Source: an uncultured Verrucomicrobia subdivision 3 bacterium (lineage in GTDB: Bacteria > Verrucomicrobiota > Verrucomicrobiia > Limisphaerales > UBA11358). Taken from it: a DNA stretch of 47,148 nt. The notes under the pieces were generated by a model, which was given only the letters and a program-made list of their open reading frames with translations, did not search any database and was not told the DNA's origin. Below, piece by piece: positions 7,491 through 20,520 of this stretch (within the stretch, counting starts at the first letter, position 1; every line of letters begins with the position of its first letter). Made by a program: the position numbers and the translations under genes. The DNA is taken from NCBI GenBank assembly GCA_903944085.1, contig CAJAQO010000192.1, positions 1 through 47,148 on the forward strand, given 5' to 3'.

Positions 7491-7735
7491 AAAAGTTTTG
7501 CGCGGATTCGGCAAGAAAATTGGAGGCGGGTGCGCCGGACAAATTTGCTTTTCTCTGAAAACCTGTAGTTTTTAAGGCTTCGCGCCCCGCGCCGGCCGGC
7601 CGCAGTTGGCGTAATCTGCTTGGTGTTTTGCGTGGAAACCTGATGCCGGTCAGGCTGCCGGTTGCAAATAAGGCCGCCGGGACGAGAAAACTCGCTTGGC
7701 ACGCGGGGGACATTCTGTTTAATTGGCCACGCCCG

Positions 7736-10069
7736 ATGACAAAATTACCCGCCATTCTTGCGTTGATTTTCTGTGCCGCGATTTTTTCACCGGTTGCTTT
7801 CGCGCAAGACGCGACGGACACGGGGGAATGGGAAGTGAAGGCGCTTAACCAAGTCATCCCTGGCACGGTGGAAGGCAAGGTGGACTACGACTTCGCCACC
7901 GGCACGGCCACTTATTCGAATGGCGTGTTCGTCCACTACGCCGACGCGGCGCACGGCGAAGTGGTGCTGACGGCCGACAGCGCCTCGGTCAACACCAAGA
8001 CCGGCGACGTGGATGCCGACGGCAACGTGCGCATCGAATCGGGCAAGCAGATCTGGGTCGGGGAGCACATTCATTACAATTTTCTCAACCACCAGATGCG
8101 GAGCGAGCAGTTCCGCACCGGCCGCGCGCCGGTGTTTGTGGCCGGCACCCGGTTGACCGGTTTCATTGACCACAAAAAAAATGCGACCAATGAAGTGACG
8201 GCGGCGCAGGCGTTTGTCACCACGGATGATTATGCCGACCCGGCGTATCAGGTCCGCGCCAGCAGCATCAAGGTCATTCCCGGCAAGTCAGTGCAGATGT
8301 GGAACGCGGTCATGTATGTCGAGGGCGTGCCGGTATTTTATTTTCCGTATTACGAGCGCAACCTCGGCCCGCATGCGAACAACTTCACCACCACGCCCGG
8401 CTACCGCAGCCGCTACGGCGCGTATCTGCTGAACACTTACAACTGGTATCTGGGCGATGTCGCGAATGGAAAAATTCACCTGGACTACCGCGAGCGGCGC
8501 GGGCCGGGCGTGGGGCCGGATGTGAACCTGAACCTGGGCCGGTGGGGCGAGGCATCGCTGAAATATTATTATATCAACGACGAACGCGCGAACATCAGTT
8601 CAGGCATGTTCAACGTCACGAATGGCGTGAATGGAACCAATGTTGTTCCGCGGTTCGGCAATATTCCGCGAAACCGCCAGCGCTTCTTCCTCGGCTGGCA
8701 GGCGACGCCCGCGACGAATCTGAACCTGAAGGCGCTGGTGAATTACCAGAGCGACCCGCTGGTGCTGCATGATTTTTACCAAGGCGAATACACCGCGAAT
8801 CCGCAGCCGAACACCTTTGTCGAGGCCAACAAATACTGGGACAACTGGAGCCTCGACGCGTTGACCACGCCGCGCGTGAACAGTTTTTTCAACCAGGTGG
8901 AGCGGCTGCCGGATGTGAAGCTCACCGGCTACCGCCAGCAGGTTTTCGACACGCCGTTTTATTATGACAGCGAAAGTTCGGCGGGCTGGTATCGCTCGTT
9001 TGTCTCGTATGCCAATAATACCAACGGAATGTATGCCGGCACGAACGGTTTCTACGCCGACTCCGGCAGCCGCGCGGACACTTATCATCAATTCACCTTG
9101 CCGTGGACTTTTTTCCACTGGCTCAACATCACCCCGCGCGTGGGCGGCCGCCTCACTTATTACAACGCGCAATACAGCGCGCAAAGCGGCGTCGCGGGCA
9201 CGAACAGCGAAATGTATCGCGGCGTGTTTAACACCGGCATCGGCACGTCATTCAAAGCCTCGCGCCTGTGGGCGGACGCCACCAATTCATTTTTTCAAGT
9301 GGACGGCCTGCGCCACGTCATTGAGCCGTCGGCGGATTACGTTTACGTTCCCGACCCCAGCCGGCCGCCGGCGCAACTGCCGCAGTTCGACGGCGAAATT
9401 CCCGCGCTGATGCTTTCGCCCGTGCAGTTTCCGGATTACAACAGCATTGACTCGATTGACACCATGAACGTCATCCGCTTCGGTCTGCGAAATCTGCTGC
9501 AGACCAAGCGCAACGGCCAGTTGGAAGATCTCGTGAACTGGAATGTCATGCTCGACTGGCGGCTCGATCCCAAGCCCGGCCAGAGCGACTTGAACGATCT
9601 GTATTCCGCGTTCGTGTTGCGCCCGCGCTCATGGCTCTCGGCGGAATCGCAACTGCGTTACGACTTGGATCGCGGCGACCTGAACCTCGCGTTTCATCAG
9701 TTGACCTTCTCGCCCAACGACCGCTGGAGCTGGGGCATCAGCCACTGGTATTTGCGCGGCGGCGATTGGGCCAATGGTGCCTGGACGGAAAATAATTTCA
9801 TCTCCAGCACCTTGTTTGTGCGTGTGGATGACAACTGGGGCGTGCGCGCCACGCACAGTTTCAACGCGCAAAACGGCCGCTTGCAGGAACAGGCTTACAC
9901 GCTTTACCGCGATCTCCGCAGTTGGACCGGCGCGCTGACGTTCCGCGTGGAAGACAATGTCGGCAGCTCGCCCGATTTCACCATCGCGTTTCAACTCTCG
10001 CTCAAGGCCAATCCGGCCACGCATGTCGGCGAGGATGTCGTGAACCCCACGCATCTCGTCGGCGAATAA
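7736..10069 (+). CDS. lptD: LPS-assembly outer-membrane protein LptD
   Basis: The 777-residue protein starts with a signal peptide (MTKLPAILALIFCAAIFSPVAFAQ), continues with an OstA/LptA-type beta-jellyroll region (about 30–130; repeated short strands such as ADSASVNTKTGDVDADGNVRI) and then a long C-terminal region rich in aromatic beta strands, the LptD barrel. LptD with LptE inserts lipopolysaccharide into the outer leaflet of the outer membrane. Mature LptD of Escherichia coli relies on disulfides; here I find no cysteine after the signal peptide, so folding control must differ. I chose ATG at 7736 over the longer frame from 7628 because only the former begins with a signal peptide. Presence of this gene implies a diderm LPS envelope. 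Confidence 0.92.
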   Translation: MTKLPAILALIFCAAIFSPVAFAQDATDTGEWEVKALNQVIPGTVEGKVDYDFATGTATYSNGVFVHYADAAHGEVVLTADSASVNTKTGDVDADGNVRIESGKQIWVGEHIHYNFLNHQMRSEQFRTGRAPVFVAGTRLTGFIDHKKNATNEVTAAQAFVTTDDYADPAYQVRASSIKVIPGKSVQMWNAVMYVEGVPVFYFPYYERNLGPHANNFTTTPGYRSRYGAYLLNTYNWYLGDVANGKIHLDYRERRGPGVGPDVNLNLGRWGEASLKYYYINDERANISSGMFNVTNGVNGTNVVPRFGNIPRNRQRFFLGWQATPATNLNLKALVNYQSDPLVLHDFYQGEYTANPQPNTFVEANKYWDNWSLDALTTPRVNSFFNQVERLPDVKLTGYRQQVFDTPFYYDSESSAGWYRSFVSYANNTNGMYAGTNGFYADSGSRADTYHQFTLPWTFFHWLNITPRVGGRLTYYNAQYSAQSGVAGTNSEMYRGVFNTGIGTSFKASRLWADATNSFFQVDGLRHVIEPSADYVYVPDPSRPPAQLPQFDGEIPALMLSPVQFPDYNSIDSIDTMNVIRFGLRNLLQTKRNGQLEDLVNWNVMLDWRLDPKPGQSDLNDLYSAFVLRPRSWLSAESQLRYDLDRGDLNLAFHQLTFSPNDRWSWGISHWYLRGGDWANGAWTENNFISSTLFVRVDDNWGVRATHSFNAQNGRLQEQAYTLYRDLRSWTGALTFRVEDNVGSSPDFTIAFQLSLKANPATHVGEDVVNPTHLVGE

Positions 10070-10216: not shown

Positions 10217-10618
10217 TTGGTTTTGGCCGGGCGGAGAATCGCTCCGGGCGCAAGTCCGGGGAGGAAAGTCCGAACTCCGCAGGGCACGATGCTGCGTAAC
10301 CCAAGTCTGTTTGATTGGGATACACGCAGGCGGAAAGTTGGAAGACTTTCCGACGGAAAGTGCCACAGAAAATTAAACCGCCTTTGAGCGCAAGTTCAAC
10401 GGTAAGGGTGAAAAGGTGCGGTAAGAGCGCACCGCGCGAAGCGCAAGCGACGCGGCACGGAAAACCCCATCGGGTGCAAGGCCAAATAGGAAACCGAGGA
10501 GCGGCCCGCTCCGCGTTTCGCGAAAGCGAACAGGTTTCGGGTATCGGTCGCTAAGACAAATGATTCTCTCCGCCGCAAGGCGCAGACAGAATTCGGCTTA
10601 CAGCCCGGTCAAAACCAA
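10217..10618 (+). ncRNA. rnpB: RNase P RNA, bacterial class A
   Basis: This is the catalytic RNA that trims the 5' leader from tRNA precursors. The ends pair as helix P1: 10217–10231 with 10604–10618, 15 bp with one G·U. Inside are the universally conserved blocks: GAGGAAAGTCCGAACTCC near 10260–10278, AGGGTGAAAAGGTGCGGTAAGAGC near 10404–10429, TGCAAGGCCAAATAGG near 10477–10492 and the 3' CAGAATTCGGCTTACAG near 10586–10603. A length of about 402 nt is normal for class A. Short reading frames crossing it are artefacts. It lies between lptD and the convergent GHL10 gene. Confidence 0.96.
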
Positions 10619-12383: not shown

Positions 12384-12412
12384 TTGACAAGACGTCGCGG
12401 ATTTGCTTGAAT
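12384..12412 (+). promoter_or_regulatory. Predicted sigma-70 promoter for the riboswitch transcript
   Basis: A perfect TTGACA (12384–12389), a 17-bp spacer and TTGAAT (12407–12412) predict transcription starting at about 12418–12420, immediately at the riboswitch aptamer. Confidence 0.6.
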
Positions 12413-12414
12413 TA

Positions 12415-12560
12415 TGCCGTTGCAGCCTAAGTCCGGTTTGCTTTCCTCAAGCCGGATGCGGGGGAACCGAACTCCCAGTGATGGGACGGGGCGAACGGCT
12501 CGCGGCGACGCGCGCCAAGGCCACTTTCCAGGCCAAGCCCGTCAGCTAACCTCGTCGGCA
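12415..12560 (+). ncRNA. c-di-AMP riboswitch (ydaO-yuaA type)
   Basis: The diagnostic 3' core of the ydaO motif is present: CCCGTCAGCTAACCTCGT at 12538–12555, followed by GGC. The 5' half has the expected CCTAAGTCCGG stem (12426–12436) paired with CCGGAT (12452–12457), then the purine-rich GCGGGGGAACC (12458–12468), and a second GGGGCGAACGG (12488–12498) marks the pseudo-symmetric half. A variable GC-rich stem follows. Known ydaO aptamers bind two c-di-AMP molecules and usually turn expression off when the ligand is high, mostly upstream of potassium transporters and cell-wall hydrolases. The gene downstream is a KimA-like potassium importer, which fits that rule. About 76 nt remain to the start codon for an expression platform; I did not resolve its fold. 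Confidence 0.9.
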
Positions 12561-12636
12561 ATGGGCAGGGCGATCCTCTGGCATCCGCGCGTCGCGGCGG
12601 CCACGTTCTCCTGAATTTGAACGCAGTGTCGAAAAT

Positions 12637-14607
12637 ATGAATGTGTTTCGTTTGGCCAAAGACTTGGTCATTGGCCGGGCCAGAAATATTTCGGATAAAA
12701 GCATTTTCCACCACATGTCACTGGTGGCGCTGCTGGCGTGGGTGGGGCTGGGCGCGGATGGCTTGTCGTCCTCGTGCTACGGCCCGGAAGCAGCGTTTCT
12801 CGCGCTAGGCAGTCACACTTACTTGAGCCTGTTCGTGGCGCTGGCAACGGTGCTGACCATTGTCATCATCTGCATCAGCTATTCGCAAATCATCGAGGCG
12901 TTTCCCACCGGCGGCGGCGGCTATCTGGTCGCAAGCAAATTGCTTTCGCCGACCGTCGGGGTCGTGTCTGGCTGCGCGCTGATTGGTGATTATATTTTGA
13001 CCATCGCCTTAAGCGTGGCCAGTGGCGCGGACGCGGTCTTCAGCATGTTGCCGGTGGAAATGCAGGTGTGGAAACTGAAATTCTCCCTCGGCATGGTGGT
13101 GTTTCTCACGCTGCTGAACTTGCGCGGGGCGAAAGAATCCGTGGTGCTCTGGGTGCCGGTGTTTTTCGTGTTCGTCCTGACTTACACGTTCGCCATCATT
13201 TACGCGGTTTCCGCGCACTTCGGTGAATTGCCCGACATCGCCCACGGCATGGCGACCGATGTGCAATCTGGCGCGGCGGACCTGGGCTGGCTGGGACTCG
13301 TCGCCGTGGTGCTGCGCGCCTACAGCCTTGGCGCGGGCACTTACACCGGCATCGAAGCCGTCAGCAACGGCCTCAACACGCTGCGCGAACCGCGCGTGCA
13401 AACCGGCAAGCGCACGATGATTTACATGGCGGTGTCACTGTCGTTTGTCGTCGGCGGTTTGCTCCTGGCATATCTGCTGTATCACGTCACGCATGTGGAA
13501 GGCAAAACATTGAACGCCGTGCTGTTTGAAAAAATCACCGCCGCTTGGCCGCCACTCGCGGCCAAAAGTTTTGTCATCGCGGCGATGGCGTCGTCCGGCG
13601 CGTTGCTGATCATCGCCGCGCAGACGGGATTTTTCGGCGGCCCGCGCGTGCTGGCCAACATGGCGGTGGACCGCTGGATGCCCACGCGCTTCGCCACCTT
13701 GAGCGACCGGTTGGTTACGCAAAACGGCGTGCTGCTCATGGGCGGCGCGGCGCTGTTGCTGCTGTTTTTCACGGCGGCCGCCGTCAATCTGCTCGTGGTG
13801 CTTTACAGCATCAACGTCTTCATCACCTTCAGCCTTTCGCAGCTTGGCATGGTGCGGCACTGGTGGATTGAGCGCGCCAAGGAGCCGAAATGGAAAACCC
13901 GGATTTTCATCAACGGCTTCGGCCTGCTGCTGACCGGCGGCATTTTGATTTCGCTCTGCGTCGTGAAATTTTTTGAAGGCGGCTGGGTCACGCTGTTTGT
14001 CACCGGCCTCCTGATTGGCGTCGCGTTCTGGGTGAAAAATCATTACCGCCACACGCAAAAAAAACTGCATCGCCTCAACGAACTCGTCGCCGCCGCGCTG
14101 GCGGACGACGCTTTAAACACCGTGGAAAAAGCGCCCGCGCCGTGCAACCCCAACGCCCGCACCGCCGTGTTTCTCGTCAACGGCTTCAACGGCCTGGGCC
14201 TGCACACGCTGCTCGCCGTCGTGCGGATGTTTCCGAAAGTTTATCAGAATTTCGTCTTCGTGCAGGTCGGCGTGCTGGACGCGGGCAATTTCAAAGGCGC
14301 GGCCGAGGTGGAAAATTTGCGCGAGCACTCGCGCGCCGAGGTGGAGCGCTACGTCGGCTACATGAGCCGGCGCGGCTTTCACGCCGAGGCGCATTATGCG
14401 CTCGGCACGGACATCGTGGAAGAGGCGGCCAAGCTGTGCGATGGCATCGCCGAGAAATTTCCGCAGGCGCAGTTTTTCGCCGGCCAGCTCGTGTTCAAAG
14501 ACGAAAGTTTTGTCACCCGCTGGCTGCACAACCACACGGTCTTTGAATTGCAACGCCGCCTGTATCAAAACGGCCGCGCGATGCTGATCTTGCCAATCCA
14601 GGTTTGA
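12637..14607 (+). CDS. KimA-like APC-superfamily potassium importer
   Basis: The 656-residue protein has about 12 membrane spans (residues 28–470) and a soluble C-terminal domain (about 500–656). The segments GADGLSSSCYGPE (39–51), FPTGGGGYLVASKLLSP and DYILTIALSVASGADAVFS closely follow KimA (YdaO), a high-affinity potassium/proton symporter, more than classical amino-acid permeases of the same superfamily. The cytoplasmic domain has a Rossmann/USP-like beta-alpha pattern (TAVFLVNGFNGLGLH…NFVFVQVGV). The c-di-AMP riboswitch directly upstream supports a potassium role: in other bacteria c-di-AMP lowers potassium uptake both through RNA and by binding the transporters. Amino-acid transport cannot be excluded. 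ATG at 12637 gives the expected N-terminus. Confidence 0.88.
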   Translation: MNVFRLAKDLVIGRARNISDKSIFHHMSLVALLAWVGLGADGLSSSCYGPEAAFLALGSHTYLSLFVALATVLTIVIICISYSQIIEAFPTGGGGYLVASKLLSPTVGVVSGCALIGDYILTIALSVASGADAVFSMLPVEMQVWKLKFSLGMVVFLTLLNLRGAKESVVLWVPVFFVFVLTYTFAIIYAVSAHFGELPDIAHGMATDVQSGAADLGWLGLVAVVLRAYSLGAGTYTGIEAVSNGLNTLREPRVQTGKRTMIYMAVSLSFVVGGLLLAYLLYHVTHVEGKTLNAVLFEKITAAWPPLAAKSFVIAAMASSGALLIIAAQTGFFGGPRVLANMAVDRWMPTRFATLSDRLVTQNGVLLMGGAALLLLFFTAAAVNLLVVLYSINVFITFSLSQLGMVRHWWIERAKEPKWKTRIFINGFGLLLTGGILISLCVVKFFEGGWVTLFVTGLLIGVAFWVKNHYRHTQKKLHRLNELVAAALADDALNTVEKAPAPCNPNARTAVFLVNGFNGLGLHTLLAVVRMFPKVYQNFVFVQVGVLDAGNFKGAAEVENLREHSRAEVERYVGYMSRRGFHAEAHYALGTDIVEEAAKLCDGIAEKFPQAQFFAGQLVFKDESFVTRWLHNHTVFELQRRLYQNGRAMLILPIQV

Positions 14608-16617: not shown

Positions 16618-19600
16618 ATGAATCCCCCTGTGCCGGACGGACATTGGCGGCGGCAACTTTTCAATTTCTTTTTTTTGGCGGCTTGGCTGCTGATCCGCTG
16701 CGGACAGGCGCAAACGCCGGCGTTTCCCGGCGCGCTGGGTTTTGGTGCCAGCGCCACCGGCGGGCGCGGCGGCACGGTGTATCACGTCACCACCCTCGCC
16801 GACAGCGGCACCGGCTCGTTCCGCGATGCAGTGAGCCATAGCGGACGCATCATCGTTTTTGACGTCGGCGGCTACATCAATTTGCAGACCGCAGTCAGTT
16901 GCAGCAGCAGTCTCACCATGGCGGGGCAAACGGCTCCCGGCGGCGGCATCGGCATCATGGGCGCGGAAGTTTCATTCTACGGCCGGAACAATATCATCTG
17001 CCGGCACGTCCGATTTCGGCAGGGCGACATTCACAATTCCAGCAACAGCAGCAACCAGGGTGAAAGCGCGCTCAGCCTTGGTGCCGACACCAGCACCAGC
17101 CCGGCGACGAACATGATTTTTGATCACATCTCCGTCGGCTTCGGTTCGTGGGACAGCGTGGACGCCGTCAACACCGCTTTTTTCACCGTGCAAAATTCCA
17201 TCATTGCCGATCCGATTTACCAGCGCTTCGGGGCGCATCACGAAGGCGACAGCGCGAGCTGGATTCGCAACCTCTGGGTTAACGGCCACAATCGCCAGCC
17301 GCTCGCCAAGGCCAACACGATTTACATCAATAATGTTATTTATAATTATCAGGCGGGCTATACCTGCGGCGACACGGGCGGATTTTTCTCGCACGACATC
17401 ATCAATAATTACTTCATCACCGGCCCGTCCACGTCGAGCGCGAGCGATGATTTTTACCAGATTGACGCCAACCAAAGCACTTACGCCTACGGCAATCTGC
17501 GCGACAGTTCCGCCGACGGCACTTTGGGCGGCAGCACGACCGACCCGAATGAAGGCGGCCCGGTGCTGACCGCGCCGTGGTCGCCGGTCACGACGACGAT
17601 TCCGACTTATTCGCCGGTGGCGGCGTATCGGATTGACGTCTCCATCTCCGGCACTTTTCCGCATGATCAAGTTGACCAGCAGGTCGTCGGCAACGTGATT
17701 TCCCTCGGCACGGCGGGCCGGATGTTCAACAGCGAAGGCGACACCGGTCTGGGCAACAGCGGCTACGGCATTATCAACGGCGGCATTGCCGCGCTTGACA
17801 CCGACGGTGACGGCTTGCCCGACTATTGGGAAAAAGCAGTTGGGCTCGACCCCAACAGCAGCAGCGACGCCATGACCATCGCCGCCGATGGCTACGCGAA
17901 TCTCGAACATTATTTGAACTGGCTCGCCGACCCGCACGCGCTCACCGGCACAAATAGCCCCGTGGATATTGATCTTTGGCAATTCACCGGCGGCTTCACC
18001 AACGCCAGCCCGGTTTATGCCGTCATGATTTTGAGCAACGGCGTGGTCACGCTGAACAGCAGCCACATTGCGCACTTTGTTCCACCGGCGAATTTTTCCG
18101 GCCTCGGCAGCTTTCAATTCACCGTCACCGCGAACGACGGCAGCAGCTACACGAACTCGGTAAATGTGCTGATGACGCCCATCACGACGCCGGCAAATTT
18201 GATCTGGCAGGGCGACGGCTTGGCAAATGTCTGGACCAACGGCGGGCCGGCCAATTGGAACAACGGATCCAATCTCGTCGCGTTTGCGTCCGGCGACAAC
18301 GTGACGTTCGACGACACCGGCTCGAACATGCCGGCGATCAATCTCAGCGGCCTCATTTCCGCCGGCACGGTTTATGTGATCGCGGACAATCAGGATTACA
18401 CCTTTGGCGGGAGCGGTTATTTGTCCGGCGGCACGGCGTTGTTCAAAACTGGCAACGGTCAACTGACACTGGCCACCACCAACAGCTTCGTGGGCGGCAC
18501 GACCATCAACGACGGCACCGTGCAGGTCGGCGATGGCGTGTCGTTCAATGGAAATCTCACCGGCAACGTGACGAACAACGGCACGCTGGTTTACGCCACG
18601 CCCGGCGCGCTGACGAGTTCCGCCAACATCACCGGCAGCGGCACGCTGACGGAAACTGGTCCCGGCGCATTAATTCTGAGTGGCACGCAAACTTACACCG
18701 GGACCACCGCTGTCGCCGCCGGCGCGCTGACTTTCAGCGGCACACTGCCGTCCAGTGACATCACCAACAACGGCTCGCTCACGCTCTCGCCCGCGACCTC
18801 ACAAATTTATAGCAATACCTTAAGCGGACCGGGCACCGTTTCAATCAACGCAGCCGGCGTGCTCGCGTTGACCGGGACAAACACCTTTGCCGGCAACCTG
18901 ACGAATAACAGCGGATTTTTAATTCTTTCAAACAGCCAGGCCGCTGGCGGCGGCACGGTGGTTTACCTCGGCGGCTTTGTGGTGCCGGCCAATGGCGTCA
19001 TTATCACCAATAATTTTGATGTGCCAGCCTCCGCCGCTTCCGATCTGAACATGATGGCCACCAACAGCGGCACGGCCATCTGGGCGGGCAATGTCATCAT
19101 GGGTGGCAGCGCGCAATGGCGGCCCGGGAGCGACGGCGGCACGCTGGAATTTGTCGGCAATGCTGTGCAGCAAAATCACATTTTTATCGTGCCGCGCGGC
19201 GCGGTGATCTTTGCCTCCAACGCCGTCGTCAGCTCAACGACAAGTGGTTTTCTCGGCCGCGACGGCAGCGCCAACAAGCGCAGCTCGAATATCACCATCC
19301 GTGACAACGCCTCGGTGGCCATGGCCGGCTGCTCCATTGGCGGCGGCAAGGTCGGCGGCTCCGTCACCATCACGGTTCAAAATAGCGGCGCGCTTTCCTT
19401 GGGCACGAATGTGGATCTGCACAACATCGCCAACTCCGCCGCCATTTCCACCCTGCGGCTCAATGGCGGCACGTTGACTGTCGGCGGCTTTACAAAATCG
19501 CTCGGCAGTTACACGAATGTCATTGATTTCAACGGCGGGATTTTGAAAGCGAACACAAACAATTCCGCGTTCCTGCCCGCATTCAACGTCACCACGAACG

Positions 19601-20520
19601 CCGTGCAGGCCGGCGGCGCGATTATTGACGACGGCGGTTTTGCCATCACCATCCCGGGCCCGTTGATGCACGATTCCGGTCTCGGCGCGACTTCGGACGG
19701 CGGGTTGGTAAAACTTGGTGCGGGCACACTCACGCTCGGCAGTTTTGTTGCGGGCGTTCAACAAACCTACACCGGCCCAACCATGATCAACGCCGGCACC
19801 CTCGTGCTCATCAGCAGCATCACGAACTCGGCGAGCATTTATATTGGTTCCGGCGCATCGCTCAATATTCCCGTTGGATCTTTCAGCGTCGCCGGTGGCC
19901 GCACCTTGTGGGGCAATGGTTTGGTGACGGGCAATTCCATTGCCATCGGCAATGGCGCGACGCTCGCGCCCGGCAGCAATTCCATCGGCACACTCACTTT
20001 CAGCAATTCCCTCACGCTCGCATCCGGCAGCACGAACATTTTTGAAATCAGCCATTCACCGCTGACCAATGATTTGGCCATTGTTTTCGGTGCCTTGACG
20101 AACGGCGGCACGCTCATCGTCACCAACATCGGCGGCGCGCAACTCGCAGCGGGTGACAGCTTCAAACTGTTCAATGCGGCGAGTTACGGCGGCGCTTTTT
20201 CCAGCGTAAAACTTTCGTCGCTGCCCTTCGGCCTCGCGTGGAACATCGATTCGCTGAACACCGCCGGGACGATTGCCGTCGTCCTCACCACCACGCCGGT
20301 CATCGGCAATATTTCAATTTCAGGAAGCGGCCTTGGTTTGAGTGGCACGGGCGGGGTGGGCAACGCCAGTTTTTATTTGCTGGGCTCCACCAACATTGCT
20401 GCGCCGTTGAGCAATTGGACCCGACTGCTGACGAACCAGTTTGACGGCGGCGGGAACTTTAATTTCACCAATGCCACCGGCCCAAACGGCCAGAATTATT
20501 TTCGGCTGCAACTGCCGTAA
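16618..20520 (+). CDS. Large secreted pectate-lyase-like protein with passenger-type repeats
   Basis: The 1300-residue protein has a signal peptide (about 1–32), a right-handed beta-helix domain resembling polysaccharide lyase family 1 (about 34–380; GFGASATGGRGGTVYHVTTL at its start, NNIICRHVRFRQGD and MIFDHISVGFGSWDSVDA where the Asp-rich calcium site is expected), a calcium-binding-like DTDGDGLPDYW motif near 394–404, a possible Ig-like segment (about 440–525) and then autotransporter-type repeats (around 611, 683, 740 and 1034; ALILSGTQTYTGTT and similar). There is no beta-barrel translocator. The C-terminus carries WTRL…GNFNFTN…YFRLQLP, an ending I associate with Verrucomicrobiota. Probable role: cell-surface or secreted pectin or related polysaccharide degradation; activity is inferred. 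Confidence 0.85.
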   Translation: MNPPVPDGHWRRQLFNFFFLAAWLLIRCGQAQTPAFPGALGFGASATGGRGGTVYHVTTLADSGTGSFRDAVSHSGRIIVFDVGGYINLQTAVSCSSSLTMAGQTAPGGGIGIMGAEVSFYGRNNIICRHVRFRQGDIHNSSNSSNQGESALSLGADTSTSPATNMIFDHISVGFGSWDSVDAVNTAFFTVQNSIIADPIYQRFGAHHEGDSASWIRNLWVNGHNRQPLAKANTIYINNVIYNYQAGYTCGDTGGFFSHDIINNYFITGPSTSSASDDFYQIDANQSTYAYGNLRDSSADGTLGGSTTDPNEGGPVLTAPWSPVTTTIPTYSPVAAYRIDVSISGTFPHDQVDQQVVGNVISLGTAGRMFNSEGDTGLGNSGYGIINGGIAALDTDGDGLPDYWEKAVGLDPNSSSDAMTIAADGYANLEHYLNWLADPHALTGTNSPVDIDLWQFTGGFTNASPVYAVMILSNGVVTLNSSHIAHFVPPANFSGLGSFQFTVTANDGSSYTNSVNVLMTPITTPANLIWQGDGLANVWTNGGPANWNNGSNLVAFASGDNVTFDDTGSNMPAINLSGLISAGTVYVIADNQDYTFGGSGYLSGGTALFKTGNGQLTLATTNSFVGGTTINDGTVQVGDGVSFNGNLTGNVTNNGTLVYATPGALTSSANITGSGTLTETGPGALILSGTQTYTGTTAVAAGALTFSGTLPSSDITNNGSLTLSPATSQIYSNTLSGPGTVSINAAGVLALTGTNTFAGNLTNNSGFLILSNSQAAGGGTVVYLGGFVVPANGVIITNNFDVPASAASDLNMMATNSGTAIWAGNVIMGGSAQWRPGSDGGTLEFVGNAVQQNHIFIVPRGAVIFASNAVVSSTTSGFLGRDGSANKRSSNITIRDNASVAMAGCSIGGGKVGGSVTITVQNSGALSLGTNVDLHNIANSAAISTLRLNGGTLTVGGFTKSLGSYTNVIDFNGGILKANTNNSAFLPAFNVTTNAVQAGGAIIDDGGFAITIPGPLMHDSGLGATSDGGLVKLGAGTLTLGSFVAGVQQTYTGPTMINAGTLVLISSITNSASIYIGSGASLNIPVGSFSVAGGRTLWGNGLVTGNSIAIGNGATLAPGSNSIGTLTFSNSLTLASGSTNIFEISHSPLTNDLAIVFGALTNGGTLIVTNIGGAQLAAGDSFKLFNAASYGGAFSSVKLSSLPFGLAWNIDSLNTAGTIAVVLTTTPVIGNISISGSGLGLSGTGGVGNASFYLLGSTNIAAPLSNWTRLLTNQFDGGGNFNFTNATGPNGQNYFRLQLP

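Follow-up and report, generated by a model that had tools for sequence, protein, structure and literature searches.

How might a c-di-AMP riboswitch turn off the gene of a potassium importer when the leader lacks the usual stop signal? The question is raised by a 47,148-nt stretch of DNA (the window) from a draft genome of a subdivision-3 Verrucomicrobia bacterium (5.79 Mb, 335 contigs, 95.9% complete), in which an aptamer of the ydaO/yuaA class (RF00379) precedes a gene for a KimA-like protein. The ydaO-kimA leader of Bacillus subtilis uses an intrinsic terminator. The window shares the aptamer class, the target family and the expected OFF logic with that system, and differs from it in its verrucomicrobial host and in a hairpin without a U-tract, here named H1, that stands in place of the terminator. 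The riboswitch probably lowers kimA expression at high c-di-AMP, which corresponds to ample K+ in the cell. The features on which this reading is built are as follows.

12384-12412, plus strand: promoter, TTGACA (12384-12389), 17-nt spacer, extended -10 TGC-TTGAAT (12404-12412)
12414-12575, plus strand: c-di-AMP (ydaO/yuaA) riboswitch aptamer, RF00379 (cmscan)
12425-12427, plus strand: 5' strand of P1, GCC (cmscan alignment)
12524-12530, plus strand: loop strand of the pseudoknot, CUUUCCA (complementarity with the 3' tail)
12557-12559, plus strand: 3' strand of P1, GGC (cmscan alignment)
12562-12568, plus strand: 3' strand of the pseudoknot, UGGGCAG, with H1's left shoulder as a possible alternative partner (complementarity)
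12562-12581, plus strand: alternative hairpin, the pseudoknot strand with CCUCUGG, loop GCGAU (pairing counts, RNAalifold)
12568-12612, plus strand: hairpin H1, with outer pairing GGG/CCU, then GAUC/GUUC, the internal loop CUCU and an inner variable stem (alignment, folds)
12637-14607, plus strand: kimA, a KUP-family (KimA subfamily) K+/H+ symporter of 656 aa (phmmer)

The aptamer and its promoter

The RF00379 covariance model matches the window over model positions 1-134 of 134 with 56.3 bits against a gathering threshold of 38 (E 1.6e-10, cmscan), which bears out the ydaO-type aptamer claimed in the first-pass annotation, and this is the sole match in the host draft genome. The score falls inside the span of the relatives (47.6-63.2 bits), and the window aptamer is expected to bind c-di-AMP. 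The loop and tail strands of the pseudoknot co-vary: their complementarity averages 6.10 over 77 distinct loci, compared with 4.80 (sd 0.11) when tails are swapped, and none of 500 swapped-tail controls reached the observed value. Two results count against the model: the pseudoknot of the window itself scores 4.5, with six of seven pairs and one U-C mismatch, against a mean of 6.1 in relatives, and a single-sequence fold of the window leader, by a method that excludes pseudoknots and ligand, does not contain the aptamer fold. That the mismatch marks a relic or a poor binder in this genome is nevertheless very improbable, since the score is typical of relatives and the core, the promoter and H1 are all kept.

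The promoter TTGACA-N17-TTGAAT was located exactly where it had been placed before. It is missing from the output of the consensus promoter scan because the scanner's rule demands an A at position 2 of the -10 element; in the alignment of relatives the consensus -10 is extended (TGn-TTTAAT/TTTACT). In each of the 22 distinct related loci that are assessable, a perfect TTGACA precedes the P1 GCC by 40-42 nt (L095, whose upstream DNA is cut at the contig end, stands outside this count). Given this conserved spacing, the transcript is predicted to start at approximately 12418-12420, some 5-7 nt before P1. The short distance had suggested an altered P1 to the earlier reader, and this suggestion is rejected: P1 in the Rfam model is only about 4 bp, three of these pairs (GCC/GGC) are present in the window, and the same promoter spacing is kept in relatives.

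The kimA product and the c-di-AMP enzymes of the host

The ATG of kimA lies 61 nt downstream of the aptamer end. The product aligns with B. subtilis KimA (PDB 6s3k) at E 5.3e-55 over residues 27-477 of 656 (phmmer), the C-terminal part lying outside the match, and no PDB protein other than KimA, represented by 6s3k and two more entries, is related to it at E<=0.001. Eight of eight KimA residues read off this alignment are identical, window D41, Y48, D118, T122, S126, T237, E240 and Y390 corresponding to D36, Y43, D117, T121, S125, T230, E233 and Y377; passages of PMC6994465 give roles in the K+ site and in proton coupling to residues that include D36, Y43, T121, Y377 and E233. The KimA-like target is thereby upheld. 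Pfam places the product in AA_permease_2 and NCBIfam returns no match to it. Most of its nearest relatives, with 71-89% identity, are found in MAGs that carry the label Verrucomicrobia subdivision 3 or Limisphaerales.

The first-pass annotation had tied its reading to a good covariance score and to a diadenylate cyclase in the genome, and both are present. A single host gene encodes a DAC domain (E 2.4e-40), in a 330-aa ORF that also carries a CdaA_N domain and lies in the order folP-cdaA-ybbR-glmM; the ORF after the YbbR-domain ORF appears glmM-like, a name taken from its own sequence without a family search. Counting against the model, the draft genome has no match to the PgpH 7TM domain and no GdpP-like ORF among its five DHHA1 matches. 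Three of these look like RecJ, an alanyl-tRNA synthetase and a RecJ-like protein; the other two, with DHH and DHHA1 domains and a length of 315-327 aa, are candidate c-di-AMP phosphodiesterases.

The locus had also been presented as a circuit known from Gram-positive bacteria in a cell with an LptD outer membrane. An LptD homologue is present at 7628-10069, although the match is modest (LptD_2, E 1.8e-6, above the Pfam cut-off; the NCBIfam LptD model gives 38.4 bits, far under its cut-off of 683). The novelty does not stand, as passages of PMC6488665 already predict c-di-AMP riboswitches before K+ transporters in Verrucomicrobia and Proteobacteria. Elsewhere in the window are a class A RNase P RNA (10223-10616, 229.6 bits) and an autotransporter-like ORF of 1300 aa with passenger-associated-transport repeats (16618-20520).

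Conservation of the riboswitch-kimA pair

RF00379 was found upstream of kimA in 21 of 25 verrucomicrobial loci (L032-L053, L095, L105 and L108), with aptamer, promoter and target kept; L041, L043, L046 and L105 have no match upstream of kimA even at E<=0.5. Among 35 scanned loci of the 55 from other phyla, six have RF00379 upstream of the kimA-like gene (L058, L061, L078, L079, L080 and L085), and in L055 it lies downstream. The remaining 20 of the 80 kimA-like loci stood outside the Rfam scan (L089-L094, L096-L104, L106, L107 and L109-L111). Class-wide, RF00379 occurs in 63 of 286 genomes with 75 matches, two of them below the cut-off, and a DAC domain was detected in 270 of the 286 genomes, among them all riboswitch carriers but one (62 of 63). 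The exception, G101, counts against the model. Because such riboswitches had already been predicted for Verrucomicrobia (in passages of PMC6488665), the aptamer with its K+ importer target is an ordinary, well-supported added example.

Several of these loci have peculiarities of their own. Five of the 21 loci (L034, L038, L042, L050 and L108) have a membrane-protein-like ORF of 140-156 aa between riboswitch and kimA; the L038 copy has no Pfam family above cut-off, and a homologue precedes Kup in two of the 75 class loci (L146 and L154). In L095 (12-3959) the riboswitch precedes two kimA copies, the first of which carries an internal deletion. L035 and L037 are Limisphaerales-like kimA loci in a MAG titled Methylacidimicrobium fagopyrum, a label or binning that looks wrong.

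A conserved hairpin in place of the terminator

No terminator-like site was found between 12414 and 12637, so that the leader does not qualify as an intrinsic-terminator platform, and no U-tract follows H1 in the window. The four loci from Geobacteraceae and other phyla L078, L079, L058 and L080 share the aptamer and the kimA-like target and differ in having a G+C hairpin and then a T-run after the aptamer, which the window lacks; in total, five other-phylum loci have a T-run after the aptamer in the same region as H1. H1, which does not figure in the earlier reading of the leader, was defined on an alignment of 40 loci picked for the leader motif from 102 oriented loci (some of them duplicates). 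Downstream of the aptamer the conserved leader reads GGAAGGGCGAUCCUCUGG, a variable stem, CCAC and GNUCNCCC; H1 itself is near-invariant as GGGCGAUC-CUCU-stem-CCAC-GGUCaCCC and follows the pseudoknot strand. In these motif-picked loci the outer GGG pairs with CCC in 40 of 40 minimum-energy folds, and the outer helix is 91.4% paired, compared with 37-69% when the strands are slid. Hardly any sequence variation exists in the outer helix or in the alternative hairpin, and covariation is thin, with two double changes in 280 cells. Between 12 and 34 of 500 shuffles reach the covariation values observed for H1, which is counted against the model; the weakness is attributed to one arm that hardly varies.

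Is H1 a part of the riboswitch or a hairpin of general use? At E<=1 a covariance model of H1 (R1) matches only the window site in the host genome, and in 113 genomes all ten matches at E<=0.002 are end-adjacent to an RF00379 match. Five weaker matches away from an aptamer (E 0.009-0.024) are about as many as chance would give at E 0.05 over 113 genomes. As the strong matches lie only beside RF00379, the idea that H1 is a general terminator or an independent element was rejected. On 53 loci outside the alignment R1 matched eight at E<=1, four of them at E<0.01, and most of the Kup and APC-permease-plus-USP loci searched gave no match. H1 is thus common but not universal; it is a lineage-specific variant of the expression platform, a conserved hairpin where the usual stop signal would be.

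In some longer leaders (L038, L042, L108, L050, L122, L138 and L143) an A-rich linker (AAACGCG...) leads to a second hairpin, which has seemingly been lost in the genus of the window, where AACGCA remains.

Two possible exclusive states of the leader and the proposed OFF step

The left shoulder of H1 is a second possible partner for the 3' strand of the pseudoknot. Over the 40 aligned loci 92.9% of 280 cells of this alternative hairpin are paired, compared with 43-71% when slid by 1-3, and RNAalifold on 23 leaders chose the alternative hairpin too; in the window six of its seven pairs can form. The alternative hairpin is mutually exclusive both with the pseudoknot and with H1, and pairing of the tail with the left shoulder would explain why CUCU is kept in the internal loop of H1. 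A direct anti-aptamer pairing between the 3' arm of H1 (CGUUCACCC) and the aptamer core (GGGGCGAACG) was rejected: it is attractive in the genus of the window, but the fit across the 40 loci is 6.16, against 6.07 (sd 0.10) with swapped arms.

Given the two exclusive states, the leader probably works as an OFF switch. Transcription would begin a few nucleotides upstream of P1, and binding of c-di-AMP would lock P1 and the pseudoknot (loop 12524-12530 with tail 12562-12568). With the tail consumed by the pseudoknot, H1 (12568-12612) would be free to form and to act as the OFF signal, while without c-di-AMP the tail would pair with the left shoulder (12562-12581), H1 would be blocked and kimA would be made. 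A similar competition is described in passages of PMC9337991 on the tandem Na+/c-di-AMP riboswitch of Dehalobacter, where, as predicted here, the left shoulder of the platform stem would be contested, in that case by the pseudoknot and the 3' strand of P1; the Dehalobacter stem, however, acts as an intrinsic terminator and is backed by in-vitro data, whereas H1 has no U-tract and is predicted from sequence.

What the OFF step would be is constrained by two absences: H1 lacks a U-tract and no Shine-Dalgarno match precedes kimA, and therefore we infer that the step is neither a classical terminator nor masking of a Shine-Dalgarno site. It may be Rho-dependent or other U-less termination, or a block based on folding. 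A gap of 24 nt separates the end of H1 from the ATG in the window. Where a start could be estimated, in 30 of the 40 loci, the corresponding gap is 47-364 nt; the other ten include the window and leaders of the same group with an ATG close to H1. This wide spread favours an output at the level of the transcript over start-codon masking, and speaks against simple masking as the common mechanism.

Two further readings keep the riboswitch and change the output step. First, H1 itself may be an intrinsic terminator that dispenses with both the U-tract and Rho. It occupies the terminator position of the other-phylum kimA leaders with T-runs (L058, L061, L078, L079 and L080), and its varying distance to the start would fit; however, this is unlikely, given that at least six T in the 8 nt after H1 occur in none of the 40 loci, five in two and fewer than five in 38, that a neighbouring gene in the same window has a normal U-tract terminator (minus strand, 14722-14695), and that H1 was not found as a general terminator away from the aptamer in the host genome or in the 113 genomes. 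Second, H1 may lie close enough to the start codon to block ribosome loading on a leader without a Shine-Dalgarno site. The 24-nt distance in the window would suit such a switch, as would the scarcity of SD-like motifs, which a crude test on selected ORF starts found in 4 of 18 window genes, yet the distances of 47-364 nt in the 30 other loci, which have several kinds of target gene, make it doubtful. A conserved leader hairpin tied to a single aptamer class, in bacteria with few SD-like sites and with no U-tract behind it, offers a way to test riboswitch action where neither textbook output is available.

Targets across the class

The H1 platform and the targets found across the class matter more than the riboswitch-kimA pair. 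When the 75 class riboswitches were assigned targets by tblastn against one representative per kind, 18 preceded Kup, 17 KimA, 21 an SPFH protein, 9 an APC permease with a USP domain, 4 KdpA and 2 TrkH, with 4 left without assignment. All six SPFH representatives examined with Pfam have Band_7, and Pfam also confirmed KdpA, TrkH and K_trans, each in a single representative. The 21 SPFH targets fall into three subtypes (11, 4 and 6) at the following loci.

SPFH/Band-7: L007, L012, L017, L019, L023, L119, L122, L124, L130, L131, L134
SPFH/Band-7, continued: L135, L138-L141, L143, L147, L150, L152, L155

This raises the possibility, put forward tentatively, of a regulon in many Verrucomicrobiia in which a shared H1 would turn off K+ importers and SPFH/Band-7 scaffolds, with neither a U-tract nor masking of a Shine-Dalgarno site. 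If true, SPFH/Band-7 membrane-scaffold proteins, not previously known to answer to c-di-AMP, would do so, and their place behind 21 of the 75 riboswitches points to a membrane-organisation branch of the K+ and osmotic regulon. No report of SPFH/Band-7 genes under c-di-AMP riboswitches was found in the literature searched, to which the target table of Nelson 2013 did not belong.

The kdp genes extend a known case. Passages of PMC6488665 describe a c-di-AMP riboswitch before kdpFABC in Bacillus thuringiensis, a K+ importer under the same riboswitch class, and present this arrangement as seemingly restricted to Bacillales; in contrast, 4 of the 75 verrucomicrobial riboswitches precede kdpA (L009, L128, L144 and L157). 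The APC-permease-like proteins with a USP domain (Pfam, L142), found at nine loci (L025, L029, L114, L118, L123, L127, L137, L142 and L145), are possibly a further K+ importer.
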